This document shows, one piece after another, positions 3,246 to 35,299 of a stretch of DNA of 35,299 nt. The stretch comes from Acetatifactor sp. (lineage in GTDB: Bacteria > Bacillota > Clostridia > Lachnospirales > Lachnospiraceae), in assembly GCA_029050705.1 (NCBI GenBank), contig JAIDME010000494.1:1-35299 (forward strand), read 5' to 3'. The position numbers and the translations under genes are program-made. Under the pieces are notes generated by a model. It made no database searches, was not told the origin of the DNA, and saw only the letters and a list, made by a program, of their open reading frames with translations. Position 1 is the stretch's first letter, and each line of letters starts with the position of its first letter.

Positions 3246-3267
3246 ACGGATTCATGGAAATAATTCC

Positions 3268-3332: not shown

Positions 3333-3361
3333 TTTACAATTTGAACTTTAAATGCTACAAT
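3333..3361 (+). promoter_or_regulatory. Promoter of the araC-family gene: TTTACA-17-TACAAT
   Basis: TTTACA 3333-3338, 17-nt spacer, TACAAT 3356-3361; followed by GAAAGGAAGG RBS and ATG at 3390. Confidence 0.65.
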
Positions 3362-5204: not shown

Positions 5205-5250
5205 TATCTGTCTCCTTCCCACGCTTATCCGCCGCAGGCACGTTCCCTTA

Positions 5251-5949
5251 TCATAGGTTCTCCCCGCCATGAACCTGCTCTCCCGCCTCCAGTTCAATGA
5301 TCATGTCCCCGGCGCCCATCAGCCCTACGTCATGGGTCGTCATGAGGACGGTGATCCCTTCCTTCCTTGTCATCTCCTGAAACAGCTTCGTAACCTGTGC
5401 CGCCATTGCGCTGTCCAACTCCGCGGTAGGCTCGTCCGCCAAAATCAGCTTGGGGCGATGAGCGATGGCTCTGGCAATGGCTACCCTCTGCTGCTCGCCG
5501 CCGGACATTTCCGCCGGCATATGACGCGCACGATTTCCAAGCCCTACCATCTTTAAACATTCCTCCACCCGCTTATCCCGCTCCCGCCCGGCTTTGATGC
5601 CCGCCAACCGCATGGAAAACTCCACATTCTGGAAAGCGTTCATGGTGGGGATCAGGGAAACTGCCTGGAATACGAAGCCCATGTCCTTCCTTCTGAGATT
5701 TTCCCGCGCTTTGTCGGACATTTTGCCCACTGCCCTGCCGTCGATTAAAACTGTGCCGGAAGTGGGATGATCCAGCGCCCCGATAATGTTCATCAGGGTA
5801 GTCTTACCGGAGCCGGAGCGGCCTTTTAAGATCGTCAGGGTGCTCCTCATGACTTTAACGTTTATGTTCTTCAGCGCCTGGAACTCTCCCCCCGGAACGG
5901 AGAAAATACGGTTTACCCCGCTTACTTCAATCAAACAATCATTCGCCAT
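5251..5949 (-). CDS. ABC transporter ATP-binding protein (MacB/LolD-like)
   Basis: GRSGSGKTT, MSGGEQQRVAIARAIAHRPKLILADEPTAELD, H-loop MTTHD. Start overlaps the upstream stop as TAATG. Confidence 0.94.
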   Translation of the reverse strand: MANDCLIEVSGVNRIFSVPGGEFQALKNINVKVMRSTLTILKGRSGSGKTTLMNIIGALDHPTSGTVLIDGRAVGKMSDKARENLRRKDMGFVFQAVSLIPTMNAFQNVEFSMRLAGIKAGRERDKRVEECLKMVGLGNRARHMPAEMSGGEQQRVAIARAIAHRPKLILADEPTAELDSAMAAQVTKLFQEMTRKEGITVLMTTHDVGLMGAGDMIIELEAGEQVHGGENL

Positions 5950-10933: not shown

Positions 10934-12024
10934 CGAATCACCCTTTCCCCTTCTTCCAGGCCGCTCAGGATTTCCACCATCTCATCGCCGGACAATCCGA
11001 TATCTACCCATCTGATCTGCCTCATGCCGTCCTCGTCCGTCACATAGACATAATATCTGTCGTCCGCGCTGTTGACCGCTGACTTCGGCAGACACAGCAC
11101 CTGCTCCCGACTGTCCAGCACGAACTTAATCGTGCCGCTGGTGCCCACCTCGATCCCGGTAGTCATAGGTCCTGCGTGTACGCTGAACTGCTGAATCTCC
11201 CCCCAGTTAGAGATGTCATAGGGCAGCAGCTCATACTGACCCTTAGCGCTGCCGGTAATGACAGACATATCCACCGTTTCCCCCTCTGTGAAACAATCGC
11301 TGTATTCCGGAGCCTCCGCCTCAAACAGACATCTGGAATTATCCACAATCATCATAATGGTCTCTCCGGCTCTGGAGGTAGAATTCTCCAGCCGCTCCTG
11401 CAGCTTGTATATCATCCCGTCCATCCCGGCATAGACGCGGCAGCGGCTCAGTTCCTGCCTGAGCGCTTCCAGTTCCTGCCTGTCCAGCTCCAGCGCATCG
11501 CCGCAATCCTCCCTCTGGTAGCGGTAATTCTTCTCAATGCCGGCGAGGACCTCGTCCAGCCCTTCTTTATTGTAATAGTTGTTGTAGAGATAGTTCACCC
11601 ATGCCTGGGATATGTCCAGCGCTTCGTTCATTTCCGTATACTCCAGAAGCAGTTCGTTTCTCCTGATCCTGTACTCCAGATCCTCTATCTGCTTCTCCAG
11701 ATTTCCGGCGGACAGCTCCGCCAGCAGCGCACCCTTCTTTACAATATCCCCTTCCTCCACATACACCTTATCCACCAGACGCCCCGTCAGGGAAAAACTT
11801 ATCTCCTGCTCCTTCTGCTGTCGATAGGTACAATCCAGCTTTGCAGTCAGAACCACATCTCCGATTCCGGCAATGATGTAATTGTTGGAAAGCGTATCGT
11901 CAGATTCCTCCACCATGATAAGAGGCTCCTCCGGAGTCTGCATCTCACAGCCGCATAGCAGCATCGCCGCCGCGCTGCAGACACAGAATATCTTAAATCC
12001 CGTCTGCGCTCTGTATTTCCCCAT
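10930..12024 (-). CDS. Efflux adaptor (HlyD-like) lipoprotein, single module
   Basis: Lipobox MLLCGCE; GRLVDKVYVEEGDIVKKGALLAELS; coiled coil; VLCLPKSAVNSADDRYYVYVTDEDG; GLEEGERVIR. Start at MGKYRAQ (GGAGGT RBS) rather than 12090. Confidence 0.88.
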   Translation of the reverse strand: MGKYRAQTGFKIFCVCSAAAMLLCGCEMQTPEEPLIMVEESDDTLSNNYIIAGIGDVVLTAKLDCTYRQQKEQEISFSLTGRLVDKVYVEEGDIVKKGALLAELSAGNLEKQIEDLEYRIRRNELLLEYTEMNEALDISQAWVNYLYNNYYNKEGLDEVLAGIEKNYRYQREDCGDALELDRQELEALRQELSRCRVYAGMDGMIYKLQERLENSTSRAGETIMMIVDNSRCLFEAEAPEYSDCFTEGETVDMSVITGSAKGQYELLPYDISNWGEIQQFSVHAGPMTTGIEVGTSGTIKFVLDSREQVLCLPKSAVNSADDRYYVYVTDEDGMRQIRWVDIGLSGDEMVEILSGLEEGERVIR

Positions 12025-12134
12025 CCTTAATACCTCCGATTTCCCTCTCACGGACTTCTGACTGATATTGTACCCTCCGCGGCAAAACAATTCTGCCTAT
12101 TCCTTGTCCTTTTATTATGCAAATTTTGCTATGT

Positions 12135-12165
12135 ATTATATTCCGCTCTGAGGAGCCCCTGTCAG
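12135..12165 (-). promoter_or_regulatory. Possible promoter for the adaptor/ABC operon (CTGACA-19-TATAAT)
   Basis: TATAAT complement at 12135-12140; CTGACA complement at 12160-12165. The 19-nt spacer is longer than ideal. Confidence 0.35.
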
Positions 12166-13064
12166 CTTCTTATGGCCTGCCGGAACCGGGACAGCAGGCC
12201 GTCTATCTTTCCCCTGATGAACTCTCTGCTCTCCTCCTTCACGAGATAATACAGGTAGTTGTCTCTCACAAAATCTCCGGACATTCCCCTTCCCATGATC
12301 TTGAAATTGACAAAGCCCCTGTCTATATAATCCCCGATTTCTTCATTGGAGATAAAAGCAGGACGTTTCATGCAGTCCTCAAGACTTTTTTGTGCCGCCC
12401 GGTTCGGACAGGGAAACTCTGTGGCGCGACCCGCCCCCCCCAGTTGTACCATCGACTGATGCCGATAATGCTCGGCGCGTCTGGTACAGCCCGGAAAACA
12501 GATCTCGTTTACCAGAATCTCCACCCGGCCCGCCTGATCTCCAACAGCCTCCAGCGCCTGCCTGTCATGATTCAGGTCATAGTCCAGAACTACCAGAAAA
12601 TAATCCTTATTCAGTTCCTCCAGAAGTCTTTCCACCCCCGTTATCCGTTTGGTGGTGGAAGAGATCAGCTTGTACTTCGGATATTTCTCCCGAAGATATT
12701 CCTCCAGAACGGGCAGGTTCACCAACACCTGATTGAGACCGTTGTCCGCCATTTCCATGATCAGGTTACAATAGGGATCCTGCAGATGCTTCTCCTCCAG
12801 CAGACTGTTGGTCCATGTGAAGCGGACAGGAACCTCCCTGTCATTATAGATCTTGAGTATGGCCTCTATCTCCTGCCTCCCGACACTTCCCATCACAGCC
12901 CTGCCCCCGTTCCATATTGCTCCCGGAAAGGTTCCGTAAACGGATCCGATCCGATAGCCCTCCCGGAAGCACTCCGGGTAATCCTTCATCAGATTCAGAA
13001 GGATCTGATTCAACAGTCTGAAATAACAAAATCCGGGCAGATGCCAATATATTTCCTTCACCAT
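12162..13064 (-). CDS. U32-like (peptidase U32/UbiU-V-like) TIM-barrel protein, paralog A
   Basis: EILVNEICFPGCTRRAEHYRH, FPCPNR...EDCMKRP, GFVNFKIMGR resemble U32 motifs. Many blocks shared with the adjacent gene (WNGGR, TNSLL, DPYCN, ADNGLNQV, EEYLREKYPKYKLISST, KDYFLVVLDY). Confidence 0.65.
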   Translation of the reverse strand: MVKEIYWHLPGFCYFRLLNQILLNLMKDYPECFREGYRIGSVYGTFPGAIWNGGRAVMGSVGRQEIEAILKIYNDREVPVRFTWTNSLLEEKHLQDPYCNLIMEMADNGLNQVLVNLPVLEEYLREKYPKYKLISSTTKRITGVERLLEELNKDYFLVVLDYDLNHDRQALEAVGDQAGRVEILVNEICFPGCTRRAEHYRHQSMVQLGGAGRATEFPCPNRAAQKSLEDCMKRPAFISNEEIGDYIDRGFVNFKIMGRGMSGDFVRDNYLYYLVKEESREFIRGKIDGLLSRFRQAIRS

Positions 13065-13065
13065 A

Positions 13066-14025
13066 TCATTCCTCCGGTATCCATTTCCTGGGTTTCATTT
13101 GATTCCATGTGATCACCTTGTTCGTCACCAGACTGTTTAACAGCATGATCCTTGCCTTGCCCTGGTGCTCCGGCTTTATCATGTAATGACAGTAGGTCTC
13201 CACAAGGTTAAATGAATTGGCCGTGCGCCCCTCCAGCTTAAAGTTCTTAAACCCCATGGGTACATATTTCTCCCAGATTTCCTCGGGAGAAATGTAGGTG
13301 CTGTAGTCCAGTATGTCGTAAATGGTATTATTCTGCCCGTACTCGCAGTGCCAGCCTTCCAGCGGAATCTGCTTATCCGGCGGCATCCGGCGGTTCTTTA
13401 ACAAAATACGCTGGTTCTTCGCAATGCTCTCATAATGCTTTCCCCTTCTGGGACAATCAGGCGTACAAACGGCATTCACCAGTATTTCACACCGGCCCCT
13501 GTCATGAATTTTCTCCAGCTCCTCAAATTTTCCATTAAAATTGTAATCCAATACAACCAGGTTGTAATCTTTTCCCAGCTCCTCGTTCACAAGATCAATA
13601 TCCCGAATCTCCTTACAGGTGGAGCTGTTCAGCTTATAGCCGGGATAATTTTCCCTGACATACTCCTCCAAAAGCGGCGAGAACACTATGACCTCGTTCA
13701 TCCCGTTATCCGCCGCACGCATACAGAAATTACAGTAGGAATCCTTTAAATCCTCTGCGTTTAACAGCATATTGGTGTAGGTATAACGGATGGGAATCCC
13801 CTTTTCGTTGACGGCCTTCACCACATTTTTCACAAAAGCCCCGTCGCACTGGTCAAAGTTGGACATCCTTCCCCCGTTCCAGAGGGATGTGGGGAACTCC
13901 CCGAAAAAGGATGCAATCCTGACGCCCTCCCTGAAAAAGTCGGGACGCAGCTCCTGAAGCCCGACAAACAGCATATTCAACGGGAAATTCTGCCTCAGAC
14001 CGGGCAGATGAAAATTCACTTCCAT
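13066..14025 (-). CDS. U32-like TIM-barrel protein, paralog B
   Basis: EILVNAVCTPDCPRRGKHYES, GFKNFKLEGRTANSFNLVETYCHYM (U32-like C-terminal motif), blocks shared with paralog A. RBS AGGAG before ATG. Confidence 0.68.
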   Translation of the reverse strand: MEVNFHLPGLRQNFPLNMLFVGLQELRPDFFREGVRIASFFGEFPTSLWNGGRMSNFDQCDGAFVKNVVKAVNEKGIPIRYTYTNMLLNAEDLKDSYCNFCMRAADNGMNEVIVFSPLLEEYVRENYPGYKLNSSTCKEIRDIDLVNEELGKDYNLVVLDYNFNGKFEELEKIHDRGRCEILVNAVCTPDCPRRGKHYESIAKNQRILLKNRRMPPDKQIPLEGWHCEYGQNNTIYDILDYSTYISPEEIWEKYVPMGFKNFKLEGRTANSFNLVETYCHYMIKPEHQGKARIMLLNSLVTNKVITWNQMKPRKWIPEE

Positions 14026-14049
14026 TGCTCTTCTCCTATCCTGATTGAA

Positions 14050-14079
14050 AAAGGACGGTGCCCGGAAACACCGCCCTTT
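14050..14079 (-). terminator. Intrinsic terminator or attenuator hairpin after the SBP gene
   Basis: Minus strand AAAGGGCGGTG-TTTCCGGG-CACCGTCCTTT followed by TT: 11-bp stem with one G.U pair and a U tract. Confidence 0.75.
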
Positions 14080-14104
14080 ACAATAATTCAGAAATTCATT
14101 TCCT

Positions 14105-15601
14105 TTACTTGTTTGCCTCTTCTACAGCTGTATACCACTTGGTCTTGACAGCTTCGATGTTAGCAGCCACATCTGCGCCGGGGTAAAGCTTATAAGTAAA
14201 ATCGTTACCCAGATCGATATCGGGTATGAAGCTCTCATACTTTACGGTTCCGCCTTCGGTGGACATTCTCGCGCAGGTCTCCTCCACGGTACGAATGTTG
14301 TCCGCACAGTCATAGTAACCTGCCAGATGGGGATTAACATCCTCATAACCGGGGATGGGCTCTGTCCAGAGATTGAATGCAAACATGATCTTCCATGCCC
14401 TCTCCTCGTCATAGCATGCAGGAAGCGCCCAGACATTGTCATCGTATGCGTTGACATAGTGACCGCAGTCAGGTCCGATGGGGAACATCAGGAAGCCCAT
14501 TTCATCTTCCATGTTACCGTAATCGCCGTTGGCAGTCATAGCATATGCCTGCTCGCACAGGAATACGAATTTTCCCTCATCTCTGAAAGCTGCTTTGAAA
14601 TAATCCCACTCTGTTCCCTCGGGCTGGGGATACTCATACTTCTCCATAATTTCCACGGCCCAGTTCACAGCCTTAACCGTCTTGGGATCCTCCAGGTTGC
14701 ACACATACTGGCCGTCTTCCATGCCAAACAGGGAACTTCCGTTGGAGTAAACGGCAGCCAGGGCAAACTGTCCTCTGTTACCGCACATGGGATAGATGTC
14801 CTGCACGCCATCGCTGTCAACGTCGCCGCCGGCCATGATCTTATCCATGATCTCTTCCCACTTTTCCCAGGTCCACTCGTTGCTCGCCTGCAGATCATAA
14901 AGGTCATCCGCAGTCATACCCGTAGTCTGCTCCAACAGCCTGATGTTGAAATACATGCCGTCACGGGGCTCCGGCACGCCCGCATAAAAGGCATAGATGG
15001 AATCGCCCTTGGAATACAGGTTACACTGTCCGTTCTGCTGGAACTTTTTCTCTGAGAAATCCAGGCAGTCAAGCGTTGCAACGTCATACATCAATCCCTG
15101 CTTCATGGCGGAAATCATCGCGCCCTGAGTGTTGGTAATAAAAATGTAGTTGTTGTCATCGCCGCCGGTGGTAACGTAATCCACAAAGGATGTATGGCAG
15201 TCGCCCCAGCCGCCCAGAGCCTCCTGACTCATGGTAAAGTTGTAGGTCTCCTGGATCCACTCACGCCATTCTTCCTTTGCCTCGCCGTAGTCATCGTTGG
15301 AGGTTCCCTCTCCGAACCAGGACCAGATCTTAATGTCCATGCCGCCCAGGTCATAGACATTGCCGTTCTCATCCGTGAGAATGGGATACTTGCTCACCTC
15401 ACCCTGCTCTTCGGGTTCGGACTCGCTTCCCTGGCTGTCTGCAGGGCTCTCTGACTGAACCTCGCTGTTCGAGCCTTCAGGTGCATTGCTGCCTGATTCC
15501 TGTGAGGAATCACCCCCCCCATTTCCGCAGGCCGCCATACTTACGGCCATAACGGTTGCGAGAGAAGCTGCCATCAGTTTTCTAAACATTTTTCTCTTCA
15601 T
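14105..15601 (-). CDS. Carbohydrate ABC transporter substrate-binding lipoprotein (family 1)
   Basis: Lipobox SMAACGNGGG, low-complexity linker, SBP-like body (WEKWEEIMDKIMAGGDVDSDGVQDIYPM...FVFLCEQAYAMTANGDYG). Adjacent permeases. Confidence 0.9.
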   Translation of the reverse strand: MKRKMFRKLMAASLATVMAVSMAACGNGGGDSSQESGSNAPEGSNSEVQSESPADSQGSESEPEEQGEVSKYPILTDENGNVYDLGGMDIKIWSWFGEGTSNDDYGEAKEEWREWIQETYNFTMSQEALGGWGDCHTSFVDYVTTGGDDNNYIFITNTQGAMISAMKQGLMYDVATLDCLDFSEKKFQQNGQCNLYSKGDSIYAFYAGVPEPRDGMYFNIRLLEQTTGMTADDLYDLQASNEWTWEKWEEIMDKIMAGGDVDSDGVQDIYPMCGNRGQFALAAVYSNGSSLFGMEDGQYVCNLEDPKTVKAVNWAVEIMEKYEYPQPEGTEWDYFKAAFRDEGKFVFLCEQAYAMTANGDYGNMEDEMGFLMFPIGPDCGHYVNAYDDNVWALPACYDEERAWKIMFAFNLWTEPIPGYEDVNPHLAGYYDCADNIRTVEETCARMSTEGGTVKYESFIPDIDLGNDFTYKLYPGADVAANIEAVKTKWYTAVEEANK

Positions 15602-15654
15602 ATTTTCCTCCTTTTTATTGAAAAGTATCTATATATATCCCTTTCATCCTCCCC

Positions 15655-15679
15655 GAGGGCATTTTTCCGGGATGCCCCC
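15655..15679 (-). other. Intercistronic hairpin between permease and SBP genes
   Basis: Minus strand GGGGGCAT-CCCGGAAAA-ATGCCCTC: 8-bp stem with one G.U pair and no U tract. Confidence 0.45.
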
Positions 15680-15713
15680 TTTCAGAAACCGGGAAATATA
15701 TCATAAGCCGGGC

Positions 15714-16721
15714 TTACATCTTGATTCCTGAACTGCTTAAGCTCTCCACAAATCCCTTCTGCGCAAAAAGGTACAGGATGATAAGGGGTACTATGATCAT
15801 CAGTACACCGGTGGAGAGAATACAGTTTGCCAATGCCTGGGAAACCTGAGTCCCCTGTGCCACGCCAAGCTCCCTGCCGATATATACGCCCAGATTATCC
15901 ACCACCTGGGTCAGCGATGTGCTGAGCAGCTGGGTGGTTCCCAAAAACATACCGGAATAAAAACCGTCCGTCCACTGCCATACAAAGGCGAAGAGGAAAC
16001 AGGATGTCAGGATGGGCTTCGCGTCCGGCAGCATGATCCTGAAAAAGGTCTTTAAAGTGCCGCAGCCATCCACATAAGCCGCCTCCTCCAGCTCCTTAGG
16101 AATATTCCTGAAGAACTGCCGGATCATGTAGATATACAGTCCGTTTTTCAGCCCCATACAGGTAATGCTTAAGAGATAATAAGGGAGCACGGAACCTCTC
16201 ATATTGACTGCACTTCCTGTTATCAGCTTGAAAAGTCCGAATATATCAAAAAACCTGAAATTCAGATACAGGGACGAGGAAATGGTCTGGGGCGGGATCA
16301 GTATCACCAGGATTACGCAGGCAAACCAGAAATTTTTAAAGGGAAACTTAAATCTGGCAAAGCCGTACCCCACCAGCGTACACACTGCAATCTGCACCAG
16401 CGCTATGGTCAGAGATATGGTAAAGGTGTTAAGCAGTCCCTGGCTGTATTTCATGATACCCGCTGCCAGCTTGTAATTGTCCGTTGTAAAATTCTGAGGG
16501 ATGGAGACCACAATGGGATTATACAGGTCATCCTCCGACATAAAGCTGACGGAAATCTTATTAAATATGGGCTGCAGGATCAGAAAACACAAACCGAAAA
16601 GCATGACAAATCTGCAAATGCTGATCCCCCATTCGAGACCCGTCTTCCTGAGCAGATAGCCGCCGGACTTCCTGTTCCTCTCCCAGAAATTACTGTATTT
16701 CCCTGTGTTAACCTTACTCAT
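15714..16721 (-). CDS. Carbohydrate ABC transporter permease (MalG/LacG type)
   Basis: EAAYVDGCGTLKTFFRIMLPDAKPIL (EAA loop), multiple TMs. Start at MSKVNTG with AAGGAGGG RBS. Confidence 0.93.
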   Translation of the reverse strand: MSKVNTGKYSNFWERNRKSGGYLLRKTGLEWGISICRFVMLFGLCFLILQPIFNKISVSFMSEDDLYNPIVVSIPQNFTTDNYKLAAGIMKYSQGLLNTFTISLTIALVQIAVCTLVGYGFARFKFPFKNFWFACVILVILIPPQTISSSLYLNFRFFDIFGLFKLITGSAVNMRGSVLPYYLLSITCMGLKNGLYIYMIRQFFRNIPKELEEAAYVDGCGTLKTFFRIMLPDAKPILTSCFLFAFVWQWTDGFYSGMFLGTTQLLSTSLTQVVDNLGVYIGRELGVAQGTQVSQALANCILSTGVLMIIVPLIILYLFAQKGFVESLSSSGIKM

Positions 16722-17622
16722 AATAGTAAACCCTCCTTGAGATGAGCAGCGAAGATACTCCCACAATGGCAATCACGATCACAAAGTATGCCCACGACAT
16801 GGCAGAGGCAAAGCCGTAATTTAAGTTTATCTTCATCACCTTCTGAATCTTCTCTATGACCTCGTTATCCGAACGCATACAGAAGTCAACCACCGTATAG
16901 ATCCAGTTCACCAGGAACAAAGAGCTTACCATGGGGACGGTTATCTTCCAGAGGCTTTCCCACTTTGTACAGCCCTCTATATCCGCCGCCTCATACATGT
17001 TGCCGGAGATGGTCTGCAGTCCCGAGAGGAAAATAATGATCTGGATGCCCGATGAAATGGCAACGTCATATATGTTGTCAATGATCTCGAAGACCGTCTC
17101 ATAGGCTCTGACGCCCACACCCGCCGTCCGAAGTATCTCCTTTAAGGCGTCTGTTATGCTGATACCCTGTGTCGCCGTCTCTACGGATGCCTGGAGATTC
17201 GCCATGAGGGCGTTGTCTGATTCAAGTCCCAGCATAACGCCGGAGGAAAGGATCACAGGCAGGAAAAACACGGCCCTCACCAGCGCCCTTCCCTTAAATT
17301 TCTGGTTGAGTATCAGCGCCACGAAGAAGCTGAACACCATGATGGCCACGGAATAGAGGAACATTCTGATAATCTCCTCCGTCAAAAGCCTGTTGAATTC
17401 CGGATCCACCCGAAACGCCTGATTGTAGTTGGCAAGCCCTTTCCAGATAGACGAGAAATTTCCCGCCCCAAGCTCTACCGTACAGAAACTCATATAGAGC
17501 GAATGGAAAAGAGGTCTTACCATAAACATCAGAAATCCGATGATAAACGGCGAGACAAACAGATACCCGGATATTGCCTTCCGCCGCTGTAAACCCGCTA
17601 GTTTATTCTTCTGTTTCTTCAT
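16714..17622 (-). CDS. Carbohydrate ABC transporter permease (MalF/UgpA type)
   Basis: EAADIEGCTKWESLWKITVPMVSS (EAA loop), YLFVSPFIIGFLMFMVRPLFHSLYMSF. Confidence 0.93.
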   Translation of the reverse strand: MKKQKNKLAGLQRRKAISGYLFVSPFIIGFLMFMVRPLFHSLYMSFCTVELGAGNFSSIWKGLANYNQAFRVDPEFNRLLTEEIIRMFLYSVAIMVFSFFVALILNQKFKGRALVRAVFFLPVILSSGVMLGLESDNALMANLQASVETATQGISITDALKEILRTAGVGVRAYETVFEIIDNIYDVAISSGIQIIIFLSGLQTISGNMYEAADIEGCTKWESLWKITVPMVSSLFLVNWIYTVVDFCMRSDNEVIEKIQKVMKINLNYGFASAMSWAYFVIVIAIVGVSSLLISRRVYYYE

Positions 17623-17659
17623 ACCTCACTGCCCTTCCTTCTTTTATTTTCCCTAAGCA

Positions 17660-20257
17660 TTACCGAACCACCTTGTAATCCCTTGCCGGCACCATCTCGC
17701 CCGAGGGAGTCACTGTATCCTGATATCCGTAGTTAACATACACCTTTGTGCCGTCCTGGTAAGTGGTGCAGAACACGTTGGCGTCTACCTTCTCATGTCC
17801 TGTCATCTCCTGACCGTAGGTGTGTCCCAGTTCCGCGTTATATCTCCCGCAGAACTCCAGCATTCTATCATACCACACGCTGTAATCGGCGCTGAAGTAC
17901 TTGGTATAAAGCGTCTTCTGAAGGGCAAAGGCATCCTCCTTCATGAGAGTAAAGTACAGACCTGCTCCGTACTCTGCGGAGCGCAGCAGTTCTTCATCCA
18001 CGTCTCCCGCAAGATTCAGGGCTTCGCCGGTATAATTCAGATAACCGTGAATCGCCATCTGATAAAAGGGTACATACTCGTCCAGAATGGTATATTCGCT
18101 GCCCTGCAGATCCATGTTGGTGATCATATCGCTGTAGACTGCGGCGTAATCATTTCCCATGTTGATCATGATATTCATGCCCTCGTCCGCCGCCGCCTTA
18201 AGCTGCGCCGCCTGCAAATCAAGCACCGCCTGTCTGCTGTATACCTTCTTTTTGTAAAAGTCGGAGGACAGATCCTTGCCCACTTCCCGGAACGACACGC
18301 CCGCGCCGTACTTTCTTCCGAAGTTGATAAGGTTATCCGCCATCTTCATGGTCAGATCCGTATGGAGCAGATAATAACTGTCATCCCACTCCGCCTGGCT
18401 GTAGGTTATAGGGCTGTATGTATAAATCTCCGCCCGTTCCTTGGATATAAACCTTGCGGCATCCCGGTAGGAGAAGAAGCCATCGAAAATATTGCTGTCA
18501 TACTCATACTGGGTGACTCCGTCCAGATACACCTCCACACCCAGGCTTTCAGCCGTGTTGATCATGGACTGCAGATCCTTCTTACTGCCCAGATCTGAAA
18601 TTGTTTTCACCTTCGTCAGTATTTTCTGGCTGATACCGCCGTTGCACCAGCCGGAGAGCTTCACGGACAGATTACCGATATCCTGAGCGGAAAGTTCTTC
18701 GATCATGGACTGTGCTTCTTTGTAAGTAGTCAGCTTTAAAGGCAGGGATACAGGCACTCCCACAATCTGCCTGACCTTGTCTACGGCTCCTACCACCTCC
18801 ACCACTACAGGTGCCTCAGTATCATTCCTTTTAACAAAATAGCCGTCATACTTATCCTTCAGGTAATCCTGATAAGCCTTCGCCATATCAGAATAGTCAG
18901 GGCTGTCTACAAACCGGTATCTCCGGGTCAGCGTCTCATCCGGAAGATCCTTCTGATAGACATAGATTGCCGCATTGCTTAAGGCATCGCTCATGCTGTA
19001 CTGCTGTCTGGAACAGATGCTGTATGCAGCATTGGCGTAATTGTAGCTGTTCGACTTTCCGCTGACATCCGCCTGAACGGATACATAGGGCGCACCCTCT
19101 TCCAGGATGCACAGGAAGGAATCCCCGCCGTTGGAAATACCGAAAGCGTTATAATAATTTCTGGTACTGTGAACCACTGCATCTCTGTTCAGACACATAT
19201 CCCAGCCGTACATATTTGCATAATAGCTGCTCTGAAGGGTCTTACCGTTGTTGAAGTTGATAAGGGCACCCCCGCCCTCGGGAACCAGTATATAGCCCTC
19301 GTCCGTCCTTCCTCCCGCTCCGAAATAAGGAAGCGGGGTAATGGTATAGATGGGATATTCATCTTTAAACTCAAGGCTCTGCAGGGGAATCTCCACTACC
19401 AGGTCATTTCCATCCAGACGATAGATCACATCCATGTTAAACACAGGCTTGTCGGAAGTGGCTTCCGCCAGATTCAGCGCCTTATCCGCCTCATAATCTT
19501 CCATGGTATACCCAAGGCTCTCGAAGACCTGTTCCATCTTTGCCTTCATGGCGCCGCTGGCACCCTCACGCATTACATAGATAGGCTCCGTCTCCAAAAT
19601 GGGATAGCTTGCAAGGAGTTCCTCCTTGTCATCCTTTTTGCCCAGGTCATTGATATCATATTTCTTATAGTATCTCTTGGCAAGATTCCTGTCCTCGTTG
19701 GACATGGCCTCAAACCACTTTTCCATATCCTCTGCCCTGCTCACGGGAGGAACAATATACTCTCTCTCAAGATTACCCAGGGAATACATAACGCGGATGT
19801 AATCCTCTCCCGTCTCCAGCTCGTAAAGGCCGTTGGCAATGCTTTGATCCTGACTGTTGAATTTGACCTCCATGCCTCCGGTGATACAATAGGACATGAG
19901 GAGAGTTGATTTCAAATTTGATTTCTCCAGAGAGAGCGCAATCGTATCGGAATCCACATCCTGAGGATTGGAATACCATACCTTTCCCGAGCTTTTCACC
20001 TCCAGAGAAAACTGTGTGGTCAACGGGTCCATGATGAGCTTTAAGCTGTCATTCTCAAGAACGATGGGCTCCTTGCCTCCGTCATAGCCGCGGGGATGGA
20101 TATTCTCCTCCGCCTCTTCCGGCACCGTATAGTTTATGACCACGATGATGCCGATCACGATGACTGCACAGAGAGTCACAGGCAGAATCAAGCTCTTAAG
20201 CTTATTAAGTACCGCTGCTTTCCTCTCGGATTGTTTTACTGATTTATCTTTCTTCAT
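17660..20257 (-). CDS. DUF5696-like membrane-anchored extracellular protein, possible glycoside-hydrolase-like fold
   Basis: N-terminal TM (LILPVTLCAVIVIGIIVVINYTVP); beta-rich ENDSLKLIMDPLTTQFSLEVKSSGKVWYSNP; C-terminal barrel-like region incl. LGVEVYLDGVTQYEYDS, YQMAIHGYLNYTGEALNL. Family assignment from recognition of sequence and gene context. Confidence 0.7.
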   Translation of the reverse strand: MKKDKSVKQSERKAAVLNKLKSLILPVTLCAVIVIGIIVVINYTVPEEAEENIHPRGYDGGKEPIVLENDSLKLIMDPLTTQFSLEVKSSGKVWYSNPQDVDSDTIALSLEKSNLKSTLLMSYCITGGMEVKFNSQDQSIANGLYELETGEDYIRVMYSLGNLEREYIVPPVSRAEDMEKWFEAMSNEDRNLAKRYYKKYDINDLGKKDDKEELLASYPILETEPIYVMREGASGAMKAKMEQVFESLGYTMEDYEADKALNLAEATSDKPVFNMDVIYRLDGNDLVVEIPLQSLEFKDEYPIYTITPLPYFGAGGRTDEGYILVPEGGGALINFNNGKTLQSSYYANMYGWDMCLNRDAVVHSTRNYYNAFGISNGGDSFLCILEEGAPYVSVQADVSGKSNSYNYANAAYSICSRQQYSMSDALSNAAIYVYQKDLPDETLTRRYRFVDSPDYSDMAKAYQDYLKDKYDGYFVKRNDTEAPVVVEVVGAVDKVRQIVGVPVSLPLKLTTYKEAQSMIEELSAQDIGNLSVKLSGWCNGGISQKILTKVKTISDLGSKKDLQSMINTAESLGVEVYLDGVTQYEYDSNIFDGFFSYRDAARFISKERAEIYTYSPITYSQAEWDDSYYLLHTDLTMKMADNLINFGRKYGAGVSFREVGKDLSSDFYKKKVYSRQAVLDLQAAQLKAAADEGMNIMINMGNDYAAVYSDMITNMDLQGSEYTILDEYVPFYQMAIHGYLNYTGEALNLAGDVDEELLRSAEYGAGLYFTLMKEDAFALQKTLYTKYFSADYSVWYDRMLEFCGRYNAELGHTYGQEMTGHEKVDANVFCTTYQDGTKVYVNYGYQDTVTPSGEMVPARDYKVVR

Positions 20258-20287
20258 GATACTCCATCCTCCCGTTTATACCTCATG

Positions 20288-20941
20288 CTAAAGTCTGAAC
20301 AGCAGCTCTTTTCCCAGGGAGATAAAATAGGCAACTCCCTGCAGGATCATGCTGAAAAACAGCATGAGGATAAATACGATTACAAGCATTGCAAACAGGG
20401 TCATCACCATAAACAGAATGTTTTTCCGCGCGGAATATTCATGAATCTGTCCCATGGCCGCCACAAAAAGCAGACCGCACCACACTACCGACAGGGTGCC
20501 GATCGCAAGATAGAACGCCGCCTCGTCCTCCGTCACAAAATTGCTGAAGATCATAAGCGGAAACTGCAGGAGCGGGTACGGGGTAAGGCAGTAGCAGCCC
20601 GCCATGTACACCTGTCCCAGCCTGCCCTTGCCGTCGAACAGGGTTGTCAGCGCCCAGTTTCCCACAACAAACATCAAAAAGGGAAACAAAACACTGGCAA
20701 TATAAAGGAAAATGTTCAGCTGCTCCCAGTAAACATTTAAGAATATAAAGCTGGTATATTTCAGCTTTATCACCCTGACTGCCAGGGTAGCGATCAGAAT
20801 TGTATTTGCCGCGGCATACGTACCTCTCTTCTCATGGGTCAGATCCCAATAGCCGTCAAGGGGATGGGTGATACAGTACAGTGCAAACTTCAATGATGCC
20901 AGATAGTGCTGCCATTTGCTTTTCGTTGTTGAATCCATCAT
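20288..20941 (-). CDS. Yip1-family-like integral membrane protein
   Basis: About five hydrophobic segments; HPLDGYWDLTHEKRGTY N-terminal motif and VGNWALTTLFDGKGRLGQVYMAGCYCLTPYPLLQFPLMIFSN typical of Yip1/YIPF-domain bacterial proteins. Confidence 0.75.
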   Translation of the reverse strand: MMDSTTKSKWQHYLASLKFALYCITHPLDGYWDLTHEKRGTYAAANTILIATLAVRVIKLKYTSFIFLNVYWEQLNIFLYIASVLFPFLMFVVGNWALTTLFDGKGRLGQVYMAGCYCLTPYPLLQFPLMIFSNFVTEDEAAFYLAIGTLSVVWCGLLFVAAMGQIHEYSARKNILFMVMTLFAMLVIVFILMLFFSMILQGVAYFISLGKELLFRL

Positions 20942-20957
20942 ACCCTCCTCCGTTATC

Positions 20958-22457
20958 CTAGCGTCTGAAAATATCAGCGCTGTCTATCTCATGCTTAATT
21001 GCCTTTACCTTGCCGATGGACATGGGGATCAGGAACAGCGCAAGGATCACCAGGACGATGATCGTAATATGCTCTTCCACCCACTCCTTGCGGTACTGTC
21101 TGTATGCCTTGGAGTAATTATCCGCATCATATTTCAATTTAAAATAATCCAGAGACTCCTCATATTTTTCCTGACTGAGAAGTGCACGGCCGATGCCGAT
21201 ATATGCCAGGTCATAATTGCCGTTTATCTCCATGGCTGCCTGCCAGGATGCTCCCGAAGCCTCGTACTCGCCGGCATTAAACTGATCCATGGCCTGGTAC
21301 ACAAGCTTCCCGAATGTCGTAGGCGTAAACAGTGTCAGACTGCAATCCTGGGAATCCAGCACCAGCAGATCCTGACCCATGTGATCCAGTGCGGAAGGCT
21401 TCTTGAAATATCCGTCCATATTGCCGTTCCCGCCGCAGGCGAACATCAGCCTTCCCTGTTCGTCATAGCCGAAGAGCCGGCCTCTGTTATCGTCCATGCA
21501 GACATACACATCGTTATCCATGGCCGTGACATCCTTAAAGCTGGAGGGACCTTCATAACCGCCGCCGCTGCCCATGTACAGGTCACCATAGACAGGCCAT
21601 TCACCGTTTCTGATCAGAATGTCATTCCCCAGAAGGTTCAGTCTGCGGATCGCCGAATCCTTCGACAGGCTGTCTCTGGTCATATCTCCCTCGACCACAT
21701 AGATAAAGCCCTCGTAATCCATATAGAGATTATCATATTCCGTAGGTACAAAGGATTCCATCCTGTCCCGCTGCTCCTGGGTTGCCAGTTTCTTCCAAAT
21801 ATAATCCGTGAAGTCGAATCTTACCTTAGTGGCACCTACAAAGCCGGAGAACTCGCCGTCGGCCTCATACTTGATCAGGCCCTTATTGATGCCGCTCGCA
21901 ACGCAGTACACACGATCTGCCGTGTCGATGGCAATCTTGCTGGGCTGGAAGTCAATTTCCGGATTTAGTGTGGAGTCCACAGGCTTATCAAACTGCATGA
22001 TGTAATTCAGCTCGCTGTCCAGCTTTAAAATGCGCTTGTTTCCCCTGTCGGCAATGAAGAAATTCCCTTCCTCGGAAACCGCAATATCCGTAGGACTTGA
22101 GAAAGTTTTAACCTCCACGTCTCCCTGGAATGAATCAATGACCCGTTTGACCTCAATCCTGTCAAAGGAAGTTCTCTCCAGCTCGATGATACGGTTATTT
22201 CCGGTATCACACACATAGATCAGACCGTCTGATACGAACAGCCCCTGAGGCGACATAAGATTTTTGTCCAGCCCCAGTTCCACTGAGGTGAACGCGCCTA
22301 CCACTGTATAAAAATCCGGCGAGCCCTGTACATCGCCCCACCAATCATAATTATATGTATAATTATATTCCTCTGCGGCGCAGACTGCCATGGAAGAACT
22401 TCCCAGGATCACTGCGCCAAGCGCCAGCGCGCCGATTCGTTTCATCATCCTTTTCAT
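20958..22457 (-). CDS. NHL-repeat beta-propeller protein with TPR-like segment and C-terminal TM anchor
   Basis: Signal peptide; repeats such as SPQGLFVSDGLIYVCDTGNNRIIELE and SPTDIAVSEEGNFFIADRGNKRILKLD; TPR-like GEYEASGASWQAAMEINGNYDLAYIGIGRALLSQEKYEESLDYFKLKYD; TM HITIIVLVILALFLIPMSIG. Confidence 0.85.
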   Translation of the reverse strand: MKRMMKRIGALALGAVILGSSSMAVCAAEEYNYTYNYDWWGDVQGSPDFYTVVGAFTSVELGLDKNLMSPQGLFVSDGLIYVCDTGNNRIIELERTSFDRIEVKRVIDSFQGDVEVKTFSSPTDIAVSEEGNFFIADRGNKRILKLDSELNYIMQFDKPVDSTLNPEIDFQPSKIAIDTADRVYCVASGINKGLIKYEADGEFSGFVGATKVRFDFTDYIWKKLATQEQRDRMESFVPTEYDNLYMDYEGFIYVVEGDMTRDSLSKDSAIRRLNLLGNDILIRNGEWPVYGDLYMGSGGGYEGPSSFKDVTAMDNDVYVCMDDNRGRLFGYDEQGRLMFACGGNGNMDGYFKKPSALDHMGQDLLVLDSQDCSLTLFTPTTFGKLVYQAMDQFNAGEYEASGASWQAAMEINGNYDLAYIGIGRALLSQEKYEESLDYFKLKYDADNYSKAYRQYRKEWVEEHITIIVLVILALFLIPMSIGKVKAIKHEIDSADIFRR

Positions 22458-22475
22458 ATGCCACCTCGCTTATTT

Positions 22476-23384
22476 CTAGTCTTTCAGACCGGAACTGGCC
22501 ATCGTCTCCAGAATCTGGCTCTCAGAGAAGATAAATATCGCAATGGGCACGATCATAAGAACCACCAGCACGGCTGCACCCTGTCCTGTTCTGGCAATAC
22601 CGCCGCTCTGAATCTGCTGCATTGCAAATACGAGAGTCTTCTTCGCCTCTGAATAGATAAACGTAGATGCCCTGTTATTCCAGAGTCCCTGCACGGAAAA
22701 GATGATCAGCGTCATCCATGCAGGCTTAACGTTCGGCATGATTATGACCCGGAACACTCTCCATTCGCTTGCACCGTCTATCTTTGCCGCCTCAATCAGA
22801 GACATGGGCAGGCCTTCCATAAACTGCTTCATCAGGAACAGACCCATGGGAGAAGCGAAGGCAGGAATGATAATAGCCCAATAGGTATCAACCCAGCCAA
22901 GCTTGTTAATGATCAGGTAATTGGGTATCGCCGTAACATATCCCGTAAACATCATCGCAATGGTAACCAGCTTGAAAAAAGCCTGACCGCCGGGAAATTC
23001 ATACTTCGCAAGCACGAATGCCGCCATGGATGCAATGATCAGGTGCCCCGCCGTACCTACCGCCGTGATAAACACTGTATTGAACAGGTATCGGGAAAAA
23101 GTAACCCAGGACTTGCCCATGGTGACGAACAGGTCGGAGAAGTTATCCAGCGTCGGATTCTGCGCCAGAATCTTCGGCGGGAAACGGAACAGTTCATCCA
23201 GGGGCTTCAGCGCGTTGGATACCGCAAATATAATGGGGAAAAACATGATAAATGCCACCAGCAGCAGGAAAAGGTAAAGCGCTATATCTCCCCCTACGGA
23301 ACGGTTGGGCTTTCTCCGCTTGATCAGTTTTTTGCGATACTCTTTTTCGATGATTACATCTTTTTCTTTTTTCTTTCTGCTCAT
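22476..23384 (-). CDS. Carbohydrate ABC transporter permease (MalG type)
   Basis: EAAKIDGASEWRVFRVIIMPNVKPAW EAA loop; typical six-TM layout. Confidence 0.94.
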   Translation of the reverse strand: MSRKKKEKDVIIEKEYRKKLIKRRKPNRSVGGDIALYLFLLLVAFIMFFPIIFAVSNALKPLDELFRFPPKILAQNPTLDNFSDLFVTMGKSWVTFSRYLFNTVFITAVGTAGHLIIASMAAFVLAKYEFPGGQAFFKLVTIAMMFTGYVTAIPNYLIINKLGWVDTYWAIIIPAFASPMGLFLMKQFMEGLPMSLIEAAKIDGASEWRVFRVIIMPNVKPAWMTLIIFSVQGLWNNRASTFIYSEAKKTLVFAMQQIQSGGIARTGQGAAVLVVLMIVPIAIFIFSESQILETMASSGLKD

Positions 23385-23385
23385 A

Positions 23386-24324
23386 TCAGGTCCCTACTCT
23401 TCTCAACAGACTTTGGATTGCTTTGTTACACAGATACATCATTAAGAACAGAATCGTTGCAATGGAACAGGCGTAACCCATCTCAAATCTGGTAAAACCA
23501 TAGTCGAACAGGTGGGTAACAATCGTTCTTGCCGCATAATCCGTACTGGGATAGCCGCACAGCTGCATCGTGACATCGCAGACACCGAAGGCCTGGGTGA
23601 TGGACATGATCGCGCCGAACATCAGCATGGGCTTCATGTTGGGTAGCGTGATATACCACAGTTCCTGCCAGCGGTTCTTGATACCATCCATGTATCCCGC
23701 CTCAAACTGGGACCGATCCACGCCCTGAAGACCCGCCACGAAGGAAAGGAAACCGGTTCCCAGGCTCATCCACAGGATGACCAGCATACATACCGGAAGC
23801 ATATATGTGGGATTGATCAGCCACAGGACGGGCGCGTCGATAACGCCCAGATCCATCAGAAAGGCATTCACATATCCGTATGCGTCTCCTCTGAAGAATA
23901 CGGAGAAAATGGTAAAGAGGTTGCCCGCGATGGAGGGAGCATAAAACACAACCACCGCCACGCTTCGCACCCACCTGGGCAGCTCGTTGATCAGCCAGGC
24001 AAACAGGAAGGACATTATGTAGCCCAAAGGACCCGTGACAATAGCTATCATCAATGTATTTTTGATAGCCTGGAGAAAAATATCATCCTCCAGTATCAGG
24101 CTGATATAATTCTGAAGTCCTATAAATCTGGGAGGCTCCAAAATATTGTAATAGGTAAAGCTGAAGAAAATGGAGATCACTACCGGCGCGACAAAAAACA
24201 GGGCAAACAAAACAGCATAGGGCGCCAGGAACGCATAACACATTTTGCTTTTCTTTGCTTTTTTTACAGCCACCTGCAGATTATGCCTGCGCAGCATGAC
24301 ATACTTTCTAAAATATTCTTTCAT
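23386..24324 (-). CDS. Carbohydrate ABC transporter permease (MalF/UgpA type)
   Basis: FEAGYMDGIKNRWQELWYITLPNMKPML EAA loop; YAFLAPYAVLFALFFVAPVVISIFFSF. Confidence 0.94.
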   Translation of the reverse strand: MKEYFRKYVMLRRHNLQVAVKKAKKSKMCYAFLAPYAVLFALFFVAPVVISIFFSFTYYNILEPPRFIGLQNYISLILEDDIFLQAIKNTLMIAIVTGPLGYIMSFLFAWLINELPRWVRSVAVVVFYAPSIAGNLFTIFSVFFRGDAYGYVNAFLMDLGVIDAPVLWLINPTYMLPVCMLVILWMSLGTGFLSFVAGLQGVDRSQFEAGYMDGIKNRWQELWYITLPNMKPMLMFGAIMSITQAFGVCDVTMQLCGYPSTDYAARTIVTHLFDYGFTRFEMGYACSIATILFLMMYLCNKAIQSLLRRVGT

Positions 24325-24335: not shown

Positions 24336-27299
24336 CTATTCTTCCAACGGCATGCCGAATTCATTCCGTTTCTTATCTATCTCATCATTGATCTTAATAG
24401 AGTAGTCGATAATGGTATTTCTGACATCTTCCTTTTTATTGATAACTCTGCGGATGGCATTGGCGATGTGGCGTCCCGTATAGTAGCCTCCGGGAACCTC
24501 TCTGATACCCACCGTCTGTCTCCACTGTTCTGTCAGCACCTCAATATCGTCAGAGCTCCAGGACAACTGGCTGAAAGCATCTATATTCGCCGTGTTATAC
24601 CGTGCGGAGGACCCGAGCAGGGCCTCTATCTCTCTTCCGAACTGCACCTGCGTATCCGCGCTTGCCCACCATTTCATGAACTCCCAGGATTTCTGCCTCA
24701 GGCTCTCGTTGTCCGTGGCAATCATCATGGTCGCGCTTCCGGTGATGAAATCGGACCGGTCTATGTAAGTATTGCCGTTCTCATCCGTCCGCTCGGTACC
24801 GGGAATCAGTGTGAAATCCCAGAGTCCTCTGATCTCGGGTGCGGATACCATCAGCGTATTGTAAATCGAGTATGCCTGAACGCCTATGGGCATTTCACCG
24901 GAACGGAATCGGCTCACAAAATCATATATGGGAGGCAGTCCGTAGTCATTGAAATATTTTACATAATCATCAAAGGCCTTGACACCCGCCTCGTCATCCA
25001 CCGTTGTCCTGGTTCCTTTCTCATTATACAGATCACCGCCGTTCTGGAAAAGCAGCGCAAAATACATGGAAAGATCAGGGGCGTTGGAAGCAATGGCCGT
25101 GCTTGCCGCAGCGGTTGTGCTGGAACCGGTAGCCGTAGGCAGACCTACCGAAAGGTTGTTGCCCTGGATCGTAGGCAGCATTTCCTCCAGTTCCTTCCAT
25201 GTCTGGGGAACCTCCAACCCCAACTCTTGCAAAACGTCCTTGCGGTAGAACATAACGTTAAAGGTCTGGGTCTCCGGCAAGCCGTAGATCCCATCATCCA
25301 GCATATATTGTTCATAAGAGCTTCGGGTGTAATGGGAAATCACCTCTTCCCAGCCCTCAAACTGGGTAATATCCTCCGCCGCCTTACGCAGGGCGTAATT
25401 TACAGGCTGATCGGCTCCCACGGAGAGCACCACATTGGGACCTCTTCCCGCAATGACCGCGTTCAGCAGCGCATCCGCCGCCACAATCTCCACGTTCACC
25501 TTGATGCCCGTGTTTGGCGTAAAGGATTCATCCACCAGGGACTTTAAGATCGTTCCCTGGTCCCGGCCGGTGAGGATCCAGACCTTGATGACCTCCTCAC
25601 CACCCTTTTCGTCATATACATCGCCCACTGCGTTATAGTCCACCACGAAAGATGCCGCAAAGGACTTCGCTTCATGCCAGAGCTGCATGAAAACATTGGA
25701 CTTCTTCTTCTCAACCTTGGCATCCACTCCGCTGACCACAAGATAATCAATATCCAGCTTGGTCTCGCTCATAGTCAGAGTCGCCGTGCCCACCGCCGTG
25801 ATATTGTCCTTGAAGGTGGTAAATTCCGTAGTAATCTTTTGGGGTTTTGCACAGAAACGCTCCAGCTGCTGAGCCACGGTCTGAGCCGTTGCGATCTGAT
25901 CAGCCTTCTGGCCGCTGTACGCCACCATATCATCCACAATCTTATAGAGGCGCTTGGATTCCAGATCCATAGCCTCCATGACCTGGGGGTAATTCCGATT
26001 GATCTGATAATCTCTGTAACGATCGGGGTTTGCTCCGGTGTAGACAAGAACCTTTCTGTATATCTGATTCAGCCGGAACGTGGAATCCTCCAGCTGCTCC
26101 AGTATGGGGCCGAGACCTCCCAGCGCCGCTTCCAAACGGATCGTATGCTTCCCTCTCTCCAGATAGATCTGATAGGGCGTACCCTCCTCGTCAGCCAGCT
26201 CCTTATATTCCCAGTCATTTCCATACTCAAAGGAAACGCTCTGCATCTCGGAAAAAGGAACCTGACCATCTATGTATACAATTCTGTTGGAGACACTGCC
26301 TCTTGCATAATTCTGACGGCCCTTGAACATGATATTGTAATAGCCGTCCTCCGGCACTTCAAATTCCCATTCAATCCACTGCCCGGCACTTCTCCACGCG
26401 TCGCCGCCCACATAATTGAGTACTGTCTTCGTAACACTGTTTGGCTGGGTCGTAGGGGAAGATCTGTCATATTTCGCATACAGGGATGATTCGGAGCGCA
26501 GGGTGGAATCCTCCCCCTGTATTACCTGAATATAATTTCTGGCCGCCTCGGAAGTAGCAACCGCAGGCTGCTTTGCCCTGTACTCCTCATAGGAATCTAT
26601 CCGCTGAACTCCGCTGACCACCAGCTTTTTCAGCACCATGGGCTCATTTTCCGCCTCCAGGCCGATTTCATTTACACCCTTCTCCAGATAAAACAGATAG
26701 GGCTCCGTAATATACCCTCTGTCATCTCTGAAATAGGAACTCTGCCAGTCATATACCTCCACCTGGGTGGGGCGGATCTCATTGCCCTGATTGTCAACCC
26801 TGACTTCTCCGCCGTTGGTCCAGATTCTGGTAAAGGAAACATTTCTGGCATCCTCGAAAGGAATCTCGCCGTTTATGTAGATGACCCTTTCCGCCGCCAC
26901 ACCTCGTGACTGGGGAATCAGATATTCCATATAGACATTGTAATAACCTGTCTCCGGTACATCCACCTTCCAGCTCACATAGGAGCCGGTTTCGGTATAA
27001 AGTGCCTCGTCAACACCCTCATACTGAGTGACCCTGTTCACCTCTCCATCGCCGGAAGCCGTGTAATCAAACAGATCGACTTCAACGCTCTGGGTAGAGT
27101 ATACTGCGTCCGCATGGGCATTCAAATACCCCGTATAGGTTCCCTCTCTTTCCATGCCTTCCACGTCGGTGTTCAGATCCACGCCGGCATATTTGTCGTG
27201 ATAATCCTCCACACCCCGCAGCGACATAAGGACAGCGATCAACACGAGCGCTGCCACAACCGCTACTGCTGTAATTACTTTCTTAACAGAACTTTTCAT
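24336..27299 (-). CDS. Membrane-anchored substrate-binding protein with two N-terminal CBM-like beta-sandwich modules
   Basis: N-terminal TM without lipobox (KKVITAVAVVAALVLIAVLMSL). Two modules with parallel motifs: VSWKVDVPETGYYNVYMEYL...ERVIYINGEIPFEDARNVSF and IEWEFEVPEDGYYNIMFKGRQ...NRIVYIDGQVPFSEMQSVSF. C-terminal SBP (VIKVWILTGRDQGTILKSLVDESFTPNTGIKVNVEI...). Start at MKSSVKK with GGAGGAA RBS. Confidence 0.88.
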   Translation of the reverse strand: MKSSVKKVITAVAVVAALVLIAVLMSLRGVEDYHDKYAGVDLNTDVEGMEREGTYTGYLNAHADAVYSTQSVEVDLFDYTASGDGEVNRVTQYEGVDEALYTETGSYVSWKVDVPETGYYNVYMEYLIPQSRGVAAERVIYINGEIPFEDARNVSFTRIWTNGGEVRVDNQGNEIRPTQVEVYDWQSSYFRDDRGYITEPYLFYLEKGVNEIGLEAENEPMVLKKLVVSGVQRIDSYEEYRAKQPAVATSEAARNYIQVIQGEDSTLRSESSLYAKYDRSSPTTQPNSVTKTVLNYVGGDAWRSAGQWIEWEFEVPEDGYYNIMFKGRQNYARGSVSNRIVYIDGQVPFSEMQSVSFEYGNDWEYKELADEEGTPYQIYLERGKHTIRLEAALGGLGPILEQLEDSTFRLNQIYRKVLVYTGANPDRYRDYQINRNYPQVMEAMDLESKRLYKIVDDMVAYSGQKADQIATAQTVAQQLERFCAKPQKITTEFTTFKDNITAVGTATLTMSETKLDIDYLVVSGVDAKVEKKKSNVFMQLWHEAKSFAASFVVDYNAVGDVYDEKGGEEVIKVWILTGRDQGTILKSLVDESFTPNTGIKVNVEIVAADALLNAVIAGRGPNVVLSVGADQPVNYALRKAAEDITQFEGWEEVISHYTRSSYEQYMLDDGIYGLPETQTFNVMFYRKDVLQELGLEVPQTWKELEEMLPTIQGNNLSVGLPTATGSSTTAAASTAIASNAPDLSMYFALLFQNGGDLYNEKGTRTTVDDEAGVKAFDDYVKYFNDYGLPPIYDFVSRFRSGEMPIGVQAYSIYNTLMVSAPEIRGLWDFTLIPGTERTDENGNTYIDRSDFITGSATMMIATDNESLRQKSWEFMKWWASADTQVQFGREIEALLGSSARYNTANIDAFSQLSWSSDDIEVLTEQWRQTVGIREVPGGYYTGRHIANAIRRVINKKEDVRNTIIDYSIKINDEIDKKRNEFGMPLEE

Positions 27300-27398: not shown

Positions 27399-27427
27399 TT
27401 TATATAGAAAGTATAACATGGTAACAA
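27399..27427 (-). promoter_or_regulatory. Promoter of the importer operon: TTGTTA-17-TATAAA
   Basis: Minus strand -35 TTGTTA (27427-27422), 17-nt spacer, -10 TATAAA (27404-27399), about 100 nt upstream of the SBP start. Confidence 0.55.
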
Positions 27428-27437
27428 AATAACATCT

Positions 27438-27479
27438 CCTCAAATATTGCTTATGTTTAATTAAATTTTGCTCTTTGAA
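27438..27479. repeat. Two 21-bp-spaced copies of the same motif as 3268-3330; candidate AraC operator
   Basis: cctcaaataTTGCTtatgttt (27438-27458) matches the 3289-3309 repeat at 16 of 21 positions; aattaaattTTGCTctttgaa (27459-27479). Cores at 27447 and 27468, 21 bp apart, just upstream of the -35. Confidence 0.65.
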
Positions 27480-27495: not shown

Positions 27496-27538
27496 GTTTG
27501 CCGGAAGAAGGCATATGTGAATGCTTCCTCCGGCAAAC
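27496..27538 (-). terminator. Terminator-like hairpin downstream of GH115
   Basis: Minus strand GTTTGCCGGA...TCCGGCAAAC (10-bp perfect outer stem with further partial pairing) followed by TTTAGTTT; weak U tract. Confidence 0.6.
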
Positions 27539-34559: not shown

Positions 34560-35299
34560 TTATTTGATTACCAGTTTTGTCCTGACCGTACGGTATTCCT
34601 CTTTCAGATCTTTTTCTTCCGTCAGATCCAAAACAGGTTCCCCGTCAATATCGAAATGGACTCTTCTGATTCCGCTGCTGCGCACGCCGTCCACTCCCGG
34701 TCTGGCATGATAGGTGTTCCATATAGTGCCGTTCTCATCTTCCACGTAGGCATTGTGCCCTGTGCCGAATTCTCCTTCCACGCTTCTCGATGTAAGGATC
34801 GGATAATTTTTCTTCTTCCAGCTGTGTACATCCAGCAGGTCCCCGCCTTTTTCAGCCGTGAGCAGCCCCACTACATAGGAAGCGTCCACCGCGGCGCTGG
34901 AAAAGGTCAGATACAGCTTATCCCCCCGAATCAGGGCAAAGGGGCCTTCATCCACAAAGGTGTGGTTATTGGCCCACCCATATTCCGGTTTGGAAAGGAC
35001 TGCCGGATCCGAGAGAAGCTTCCATGGTTCCTCCGGATTCAGCTTTGCAATATAAAGCCATGCCCCCAGGTCTTTGGGCAGAAACTGTCTCTGGGACCAG
35101 ACCGCGTACCACTCTCCCTGCCACTGAAAACAGGTCATATCCAGCGTGATCTCCTTCCCTGCCTCACAGATGTCACTGCCGTCCCGTCTCACCACGCGCT
35201 TAGGTGCCGACCAGTCATCCCTGCAGGCGGGATTGCCGCCTTCCCGAAGCTCCATCACATGGCTTTCTTCCCAGAAAAATTCTCCCGGAGTCGCCGCAT
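34560..35299 (-). CDS. GH43-type glycoside hydrolase, C-terminal part (5' end beyond window)
   Basis: The frame continues upstream of the ORF-track start (...AATPGEFFWEESHVMELREGGN) to the window edge. GWANNHTFVDEGPFALIRGDKLYLTFSS and GEFGTGHNAYVEDENGTIWNTYHARPG are GH43-like. Confidence 0.85.
   Translation of the reverse strand, partial: AATPGEFFWEESHVMELREGGNPACRDDWSAPKRVVRRDGSDICEAGKEITLDMTCFQWQGEWYAVWSQRQFLPKDLGAWLYIAKLNPEEPWKLLSDPAVLSKPEYGWANNHTFVDEGPFALIRGDKLYLTFSSAAVDASYVVGLLTAEKGGDLLDVHSWKKKNYPILTSRSVEGEFGTGHNAYVEDENGTIWNTYHARPGVDGVRSSGIRRVHFDIDGEPVLDLTEEKDLKEEYRTVRTKLVIK

Follow-up and report, generated by a model that had tools for sequence, protein, structure and literature searches.

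Putative class II AraC-type operators common to the xylanase and importer promoters of an Acetatifactor sp. genome

Introduction

In the Escherichia coli araBAD promoter, as checked in E. coli records, the I1 and I2 half-sites of AraC lie 21 bp apart and the AGC of I2 is 36 bp from the -10. XylS acts at the Pm promoter of the Pseudomonas TOL plasmid on two 15-bp direct repeats, with an A box (TGCA) and a B box (GGTA) 6 bp apart that are read by two helix-turn-helix (HTH) motifs, and the sites of activator and polymerase overlap (PMC5481539). Coordination of xylanases, xylo-oligosaccharide import and xylulokinase has been described for XynR and XylR of Caldicellulosiruptor, in another Firmicutes order (PMC12285236). 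These are LacI and ROK proteins, and XylR is described as repressing its targets (PMC12285236). The xylan loci among the Roseburia Gram-positive PULs carry an ABC importer and an adjacent AraC gene, and a word search of the paper describing them turned up neither promoters nor binding sites (PMC5320581). Regulators of xylan loci in gut Lachnospiraceae are usually named by family only.

The window analysed here is a stretch of 35,299 nucleotides from Acetatifactor sp., a gut member of the Lachnospiraceae (contig JAIDME010000494.1). According to an original prediction made from its letters, one AraC protein co-activates a xylanase and an importer operon 24 kb apart.

Results

By Pfam, the GH10 xylanase gene (1776-3227, minus strand) was followed by a GH43 gene (118-1764, minus strand), and an AraC/XylS-family regulator gene (AraC_binding plus two HTH; 3390-4325, plus strand) had a promoter of its own (TTTACA-17-TACAAT at 3333-3361). 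The first gene of the importer operon encoded a 987-aa solute-binding protein (SBP_bac_1/8; 24336-27299, minus strand) with orthologs in 44 same-genus genomes. The remainder of the operon (12162-24324, minus strand) held permeases, NHL, Yip1, DUF5696 (17660-20257), a second permease pair and ORFs without assignment; Pfam gave no family above cut-off for the last two ORFs (12162-14025) or for a 498-aa ORF (14105-15601). About eleven ORFs were counted from 27299 down to 12162, instead of the nine genes originally proposed. Between the importer operon and the regulator gene lay an exporter cassette (4320-12024, minus strand) of an HlyD-like protein, whose gene likely starts at ATG 12024, a 723-aa protein without a Pfam match, an FtsX/MacB permease and two ABC ATPases.

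Read on the minus strand, which is the strand of the target genes, the operator unit was AGCAAnAnnTGAGGA. The xylanase promoter contained three AGCAA cores, each exactly 21 bp from the next (A at 3323, 3302 and 3281, minus strand), which belonged to a distal (AGCAACAGATGAGGA, 3309-3323), a middle (AGCAATAAATGAGGA, 3288-3302) and a proximal half-site (AGCAAGAATTATGGG, 3267-3281). The proximal core (3277-3281) had been overlooked in the original prediction; in relatives, the equivalent site was 36 bp from the -10. The importer promoter contained two AGCAA cores exactly 21 bp apart (A at 27472 and 27451, minus strand), and this tandem was kept in importer orthologs. Its proximal half-site AGCAATATTTGAGGA (27437-27451, minus strand) was identical to AGCAANANNTGAGGA, which had four exact matches in the 4-Mb genome, three of them inside the window; the fourth (on C80) sat within an ORF and was rejected as a target. 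The distal importer half-site AGCAAAATTTAATTA (27458-27472, minus strand) had a weak B box, and its weakness in this genome counts against the preferred explanation given below.

The proposed similarity of the two promoters was reproduced: the 21-mer CCTCAAATATTGCTTATGTTT at 27438 was identical to the copy at 3289 at 16 of 21 positions, the TTGCT cores at 27447 and 27468 were spaced by exactly 21 bp, and the motif had the same direction relative to the target gene at both promoters. The 16/21 identity was by itself moderately rare, with one other such place in the window. AGCAA-N16-AGCAA occurred three times in the window, always within the xylanase and importer promoters, compared with a mean of 0.04 pairs in the shuffled window (three pairs reached in 0/100 shuffles). 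The tandem score of each upstream region was equalled in none of 2000 dinucleotide shuffles.

The extra (middle) half-site of the xylanase array (3267-3323) was present in this genome and in G036 and absent in G073, which suggests a recent 21-bp duplication. G067 had a triple array of its own (L070), and in G048 another tandem site preceded the importer operator by about 100 bp (L133: 4433-4498 and 4536-4582).

The xylanase -10 was TATAAT (3240-3245, minus strand), and the proposed importer -10 was TATACT (27410-27415, minus strand; TGTTATACT), with an upstream TG as in an extended -10. The A of the proximal AGC and the first -10 base were 36 bp apart in both promoters (importer, 27451 to 27415; xylanase, 3281 to 3245). 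G036 and G073 both retained TATACT, which in other orthologs lined up with a TATAAT at 36-37 bp. The importer promoter had been placed earlier at TTGTTA-17-TATAAA, the letters of which are present (TATAAA 27404-27399). In the 87% identical G073 ortholog, both hexamers were replaced, by GGCCCG and CACAAA, with TATACT retained, and this promoter was rejected as not conserved. An 11-bp difference in spacing, originally read as one helical turn that keeps the helical face, disappeared with it: TATACT as the -10 gives 36 bp at both promoters, so that no offset is left to account for, and helical-phase compensation was discarded. At a spacing of 17 bp, the hexamers preceding the two -10s were GAGATG and GGGAAT; each matched TTGACA at two of six positions and overlapped the end of the proximal half-site. 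Both promoters thus had the two features of class II AraC sites, i.e., two head-to-tail half-sites about 21 bp apart, and a proximal site adjoining or overlapping a poor -35 at a fixed distance from the -10 (36 bp in the window, 36-37 bp in orthologs).

Phylogenetic footprinting of close orthologs of the first importer gene (44 same-genus genomes) gave 28 AGCAA pairs at the peak spacing of 21 bp, against 4 at the runner-up, and the peak was restricted to the sense strand. In 35 of 41 tandem sites a -10-like hexamer lay 36 bp (21 sites) or 37 bp (14 sites) from the proximal AGC. GCAA was invariant in the distal and proximal half-sites of a 43-sequence alignment, and the observed tandem score was matched by 0/100 shuffles in 33 of 42 upstream regions. 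Strong model matches occurred in 43/44 genomes with the importer and in 1/44 without it; the former figure is partly by construction, because many of these importers had been used to train the model, and the near absence elsewhere is not.

A genome-wide scan had been called for with the original prediction. The strict tandem pattern, which contains no -10, had three matches in this genome (a 4-Mb, 552-contig MAG, 90% complete, from which further AraC proteins or targets may be missing), all upstream of hemicellulose-related genes (xylanase, importer, and an esterase/GH39 pair on C420), and the reversed pattern used as control had none. In 91 same-genus genomes it had 56 matches against 1 for the reversed control. 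A sequence-only model from which this genome and its closest relative G036 had been left out gave its best match in the 4 Mb at the importer promoter (31.1 bits, E 1e-6). The C420 site (esterase + GH39) came second, a half match upstream of a GH2 gene on C518 third, and the xylanase promoter fourth. Matches were thus concentrated at related genes above background. The C420 site was kept only in G036 and not in other esterase orthologs, and lacked a good -10; the C518 match is doubtful. The stretches before the C420 esterase gene (L138, ~1566-1700) and the C518 GH2 gene (L139, ~1449-1700) were alike, their translations sharing AGLxSAxxESLYHT, and they look like a dispersed intergenic repeat.

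Of forty further model matches inspected in relatives, about 22 preceded GH3, GH43, GH8, GH10, GH31, GDSL or other esterase, GH115 or FGGY-kinase genes, 8 preceded genes for HlyD and the 723-aa protein, 3 preceded ABC permease genes and about 7 were unclear; the genes preceded by matches included xylulokinase-like ones. A -10-like hexamer lay at exactly 36 bp in 26 of the 40, a figure partly selected because the model includes the -10. Matches at GH88/GH38 genes in G070 and at a transaldolase gene in G057 were weak or within coding sequence and are doubtful.

An inverted repeat (GTTTGCCGGAAGAAG/CTTCCTCCGGCAAAC, 27496-27538) that separates the GH115 operon from the importer promoter is probably the terminator of the GH43-GH3-GDSL-GH115 operon. 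The GH43 gene of this operon (34560-35297) ran past the contig end, which places the operon promoter outside the window. Upstream of the same operon in G036, where the contig stops short of the promoter, there was no model site; the orthologous GH43 gene of G039 had an AraC-type site (L170).

Upstream of the exporter cassette, model R1 placed a weak candidate for a third operator (12067-12130, minus strand), with AGCAAAATTTGCATA (12130), GACAAGGAATAGGCA (12108) and a TACAAT -10 at 36 bp from the proximal core. The match (12087-12130, just before the HlyD-like gene) was the third best in the window and weak (11.1 bits, E 0.017). Equivalent AraC-type sites preceded homologs of the first two cassette genes (HlyD and 723-aa protein; 8762-12024 of the window) in eight relatives.

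The regulator matched PF00165 (two stretches), PF12833 and PF02311, all above cut-off, with a C-terminal HTH pair (HTH_AraC/HTH_18) and an N-terminal ligand-binding domain, as in AraC/XylS-family proteins. Its nearest solved structures by sequence were the DNA-binding domains of RamA, SoxS and MarA. Orthologs at >=50% identity were found in 32 genomes. In 15 of these they were divergent from the importer and shared with it the intergenic region that holds the motif; in 14, all of one clade, they were divergent from the GH10 xylanase. The ortholog adjoined one or the other in 29/32, and two of the remaining three were at contig ends. The recognition helices (GFSK[YF]HF[SA]RLF and SxSTFNR) were near-constant, with whole-protein identity down to ~50%. 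In one clade the ortholog adjoins the xylanase, and almost everywhere else the importer, which makes the protein encoded at 3390-4325 the best candidate for binding the sites. In the xylanase-adjacent clade, 9/14 genomes had the site at the xylanase promoter; it was absent in one subclade (G005, G087, G035, G084 and G042), which makes the xylanase a less constant target than the importer.

Thirteen genomes had the importer and its motif with an AraC homolog only 41-46% identical to the regulator, so that another AraC protein would act there, which counts against the preferred explanation. A second AraC subgroup (L209-L221; 41-46% identical; HTH FSKFYFTRLF / SSLSSFNR) was present in genomes with the importer motif and without the ortholog, and in a few beside the ortholog. 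Replacement of the regulator by this subgroup is possible.

Discussion

The sites are very probably class II AraC-type operators bound by the regulator encoded at 3390-4325, which would coordinate the xylanase and the importer. The sequence comparisons indicate that this AraC-like protein switches on a small xylan-use regulon. A single AraC protein for both promoters was supported by the strict scan, by the rank of the importer promoter with the independent model, by the tracking of the site with the importer, and by the ortholog beside importer or xylanase. Of the co-activation originally proposed, the common site and regulator withstood the genome-wide test; activation itself is read from promoter geometry.

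To the observed site, spacing, geometry, conservation, co-occurrence and regulator context, the proposed mechanism adds binding by the regulator, activation and an inducer. Two AraC monomers, or one dimer, would bind head to tail on half-sites 21 bp apart, each with its A box (AGCAA) toward upstream and its B box (TGAGGA) toward the promoter. The proximal half-site would end on the -35 region (GAGATG, GGGAAT); as this is a poor hexamer, RNA polymerase would need the bound activator to use the -10 lying 36 bp from AGC. The trigger would probably be a xylan-derived sugar, so that the secreted xylanase, the importer, the products of other hemicellulose genes and possibly those of the exporter cassette would be made together.

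At the importer, another AraC-family protein encoded in this genome might act on genuine AraC-type operators, the likeness of the sites then being a subfamily consensus. There are many AraC homologs per genome, and the thirteen genomes that retain the importer motif with only the 41-46% homolog have related helices (FSKFYFTRLF / SSLSSFNR). This is nevertheless unlikely, as no other homolog in the genome of the window reached E 1e-45 and the true ortholog was divergent from the importer, with the motif in between, in 15 genomes. It is more improbable still that, as long as sugar is absent, the bound protein acts as a repressor, to be released by an inducer. The overlap of the proximal site with the -35 region would allow occlusion, but those hexamers match only two of six consensus positions, the geometry is the same as that of activators, and the 36-37 bp from site to -10, which activation requires and repression does not, was held across orthologs. 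Chance likeness of the two promoters in AT-rich intergenic DNA, suggested by the 16/21 identity met once elsewhere in the window, is already refuted by the shuffles (0/2000, and 0/100 for three tandem pairs), the deep conservation and the 56 matches against 1 genus-wide.

Whether the regulon of the AraC protein also takes in the conserved HlyD/723-aa/FtsX/two-ATPase export cassette, as a part co-induced in xylan use in the genus, is an even call. If it does, an export or envelope-extrusion machine would be a co-induced part of xylan use, and the cassette would gain a probable physiological context.

No paper describing the AGCAAnAnnTGAGGA operator, nor a published operator for the regulator of a gut Lachnospiraceae xylan locus, was found in the open-licence literature. 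A specific operator, a promoter geometry, a candidate protein and a target list are proposed here, each of which is directly testable. The regulator gene adjoins the importer in some genomes and the xylanase in others, usually with a site at each of the two promoters, which illustrates how the wiring of a local regulon can change.

The regulon is new, and the type of activator is already known. As with E. coli AraC at araI1-I2 of araBAD, the direct repeats are 21 bp apart in the same orientation, AGC is 36 bp from the -10, and a poor -35 is overlapped by the proximal site. Unlike in araBAD, the B box is TGAGGA instead of TCCATA-like, the targets are xylan rather than arabinose genes, there is no evidence of a looping site, and the xylanase promoter has a third half-site. 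The general operator design is that of XylS at Pm, with different boxes, organism and effector. The first HTH of the regulator has a recognition helix of the SK[WY]H type, as in the DNA-binding domains of MarA, RamA, SoxS and Rob, and the A box of the marbox includes GCA. Those proteins are single-domain or differently built and bind one 20-bp marbox, whereas a cupin-type sensor domain and tandem sites are found here. As with XynR and XylR, a regulator would link xylanase and import genes, but the families are unrelated and the operators different: the regulator beside the sites is an AraC-family protein and not of the LacI or ROK family.
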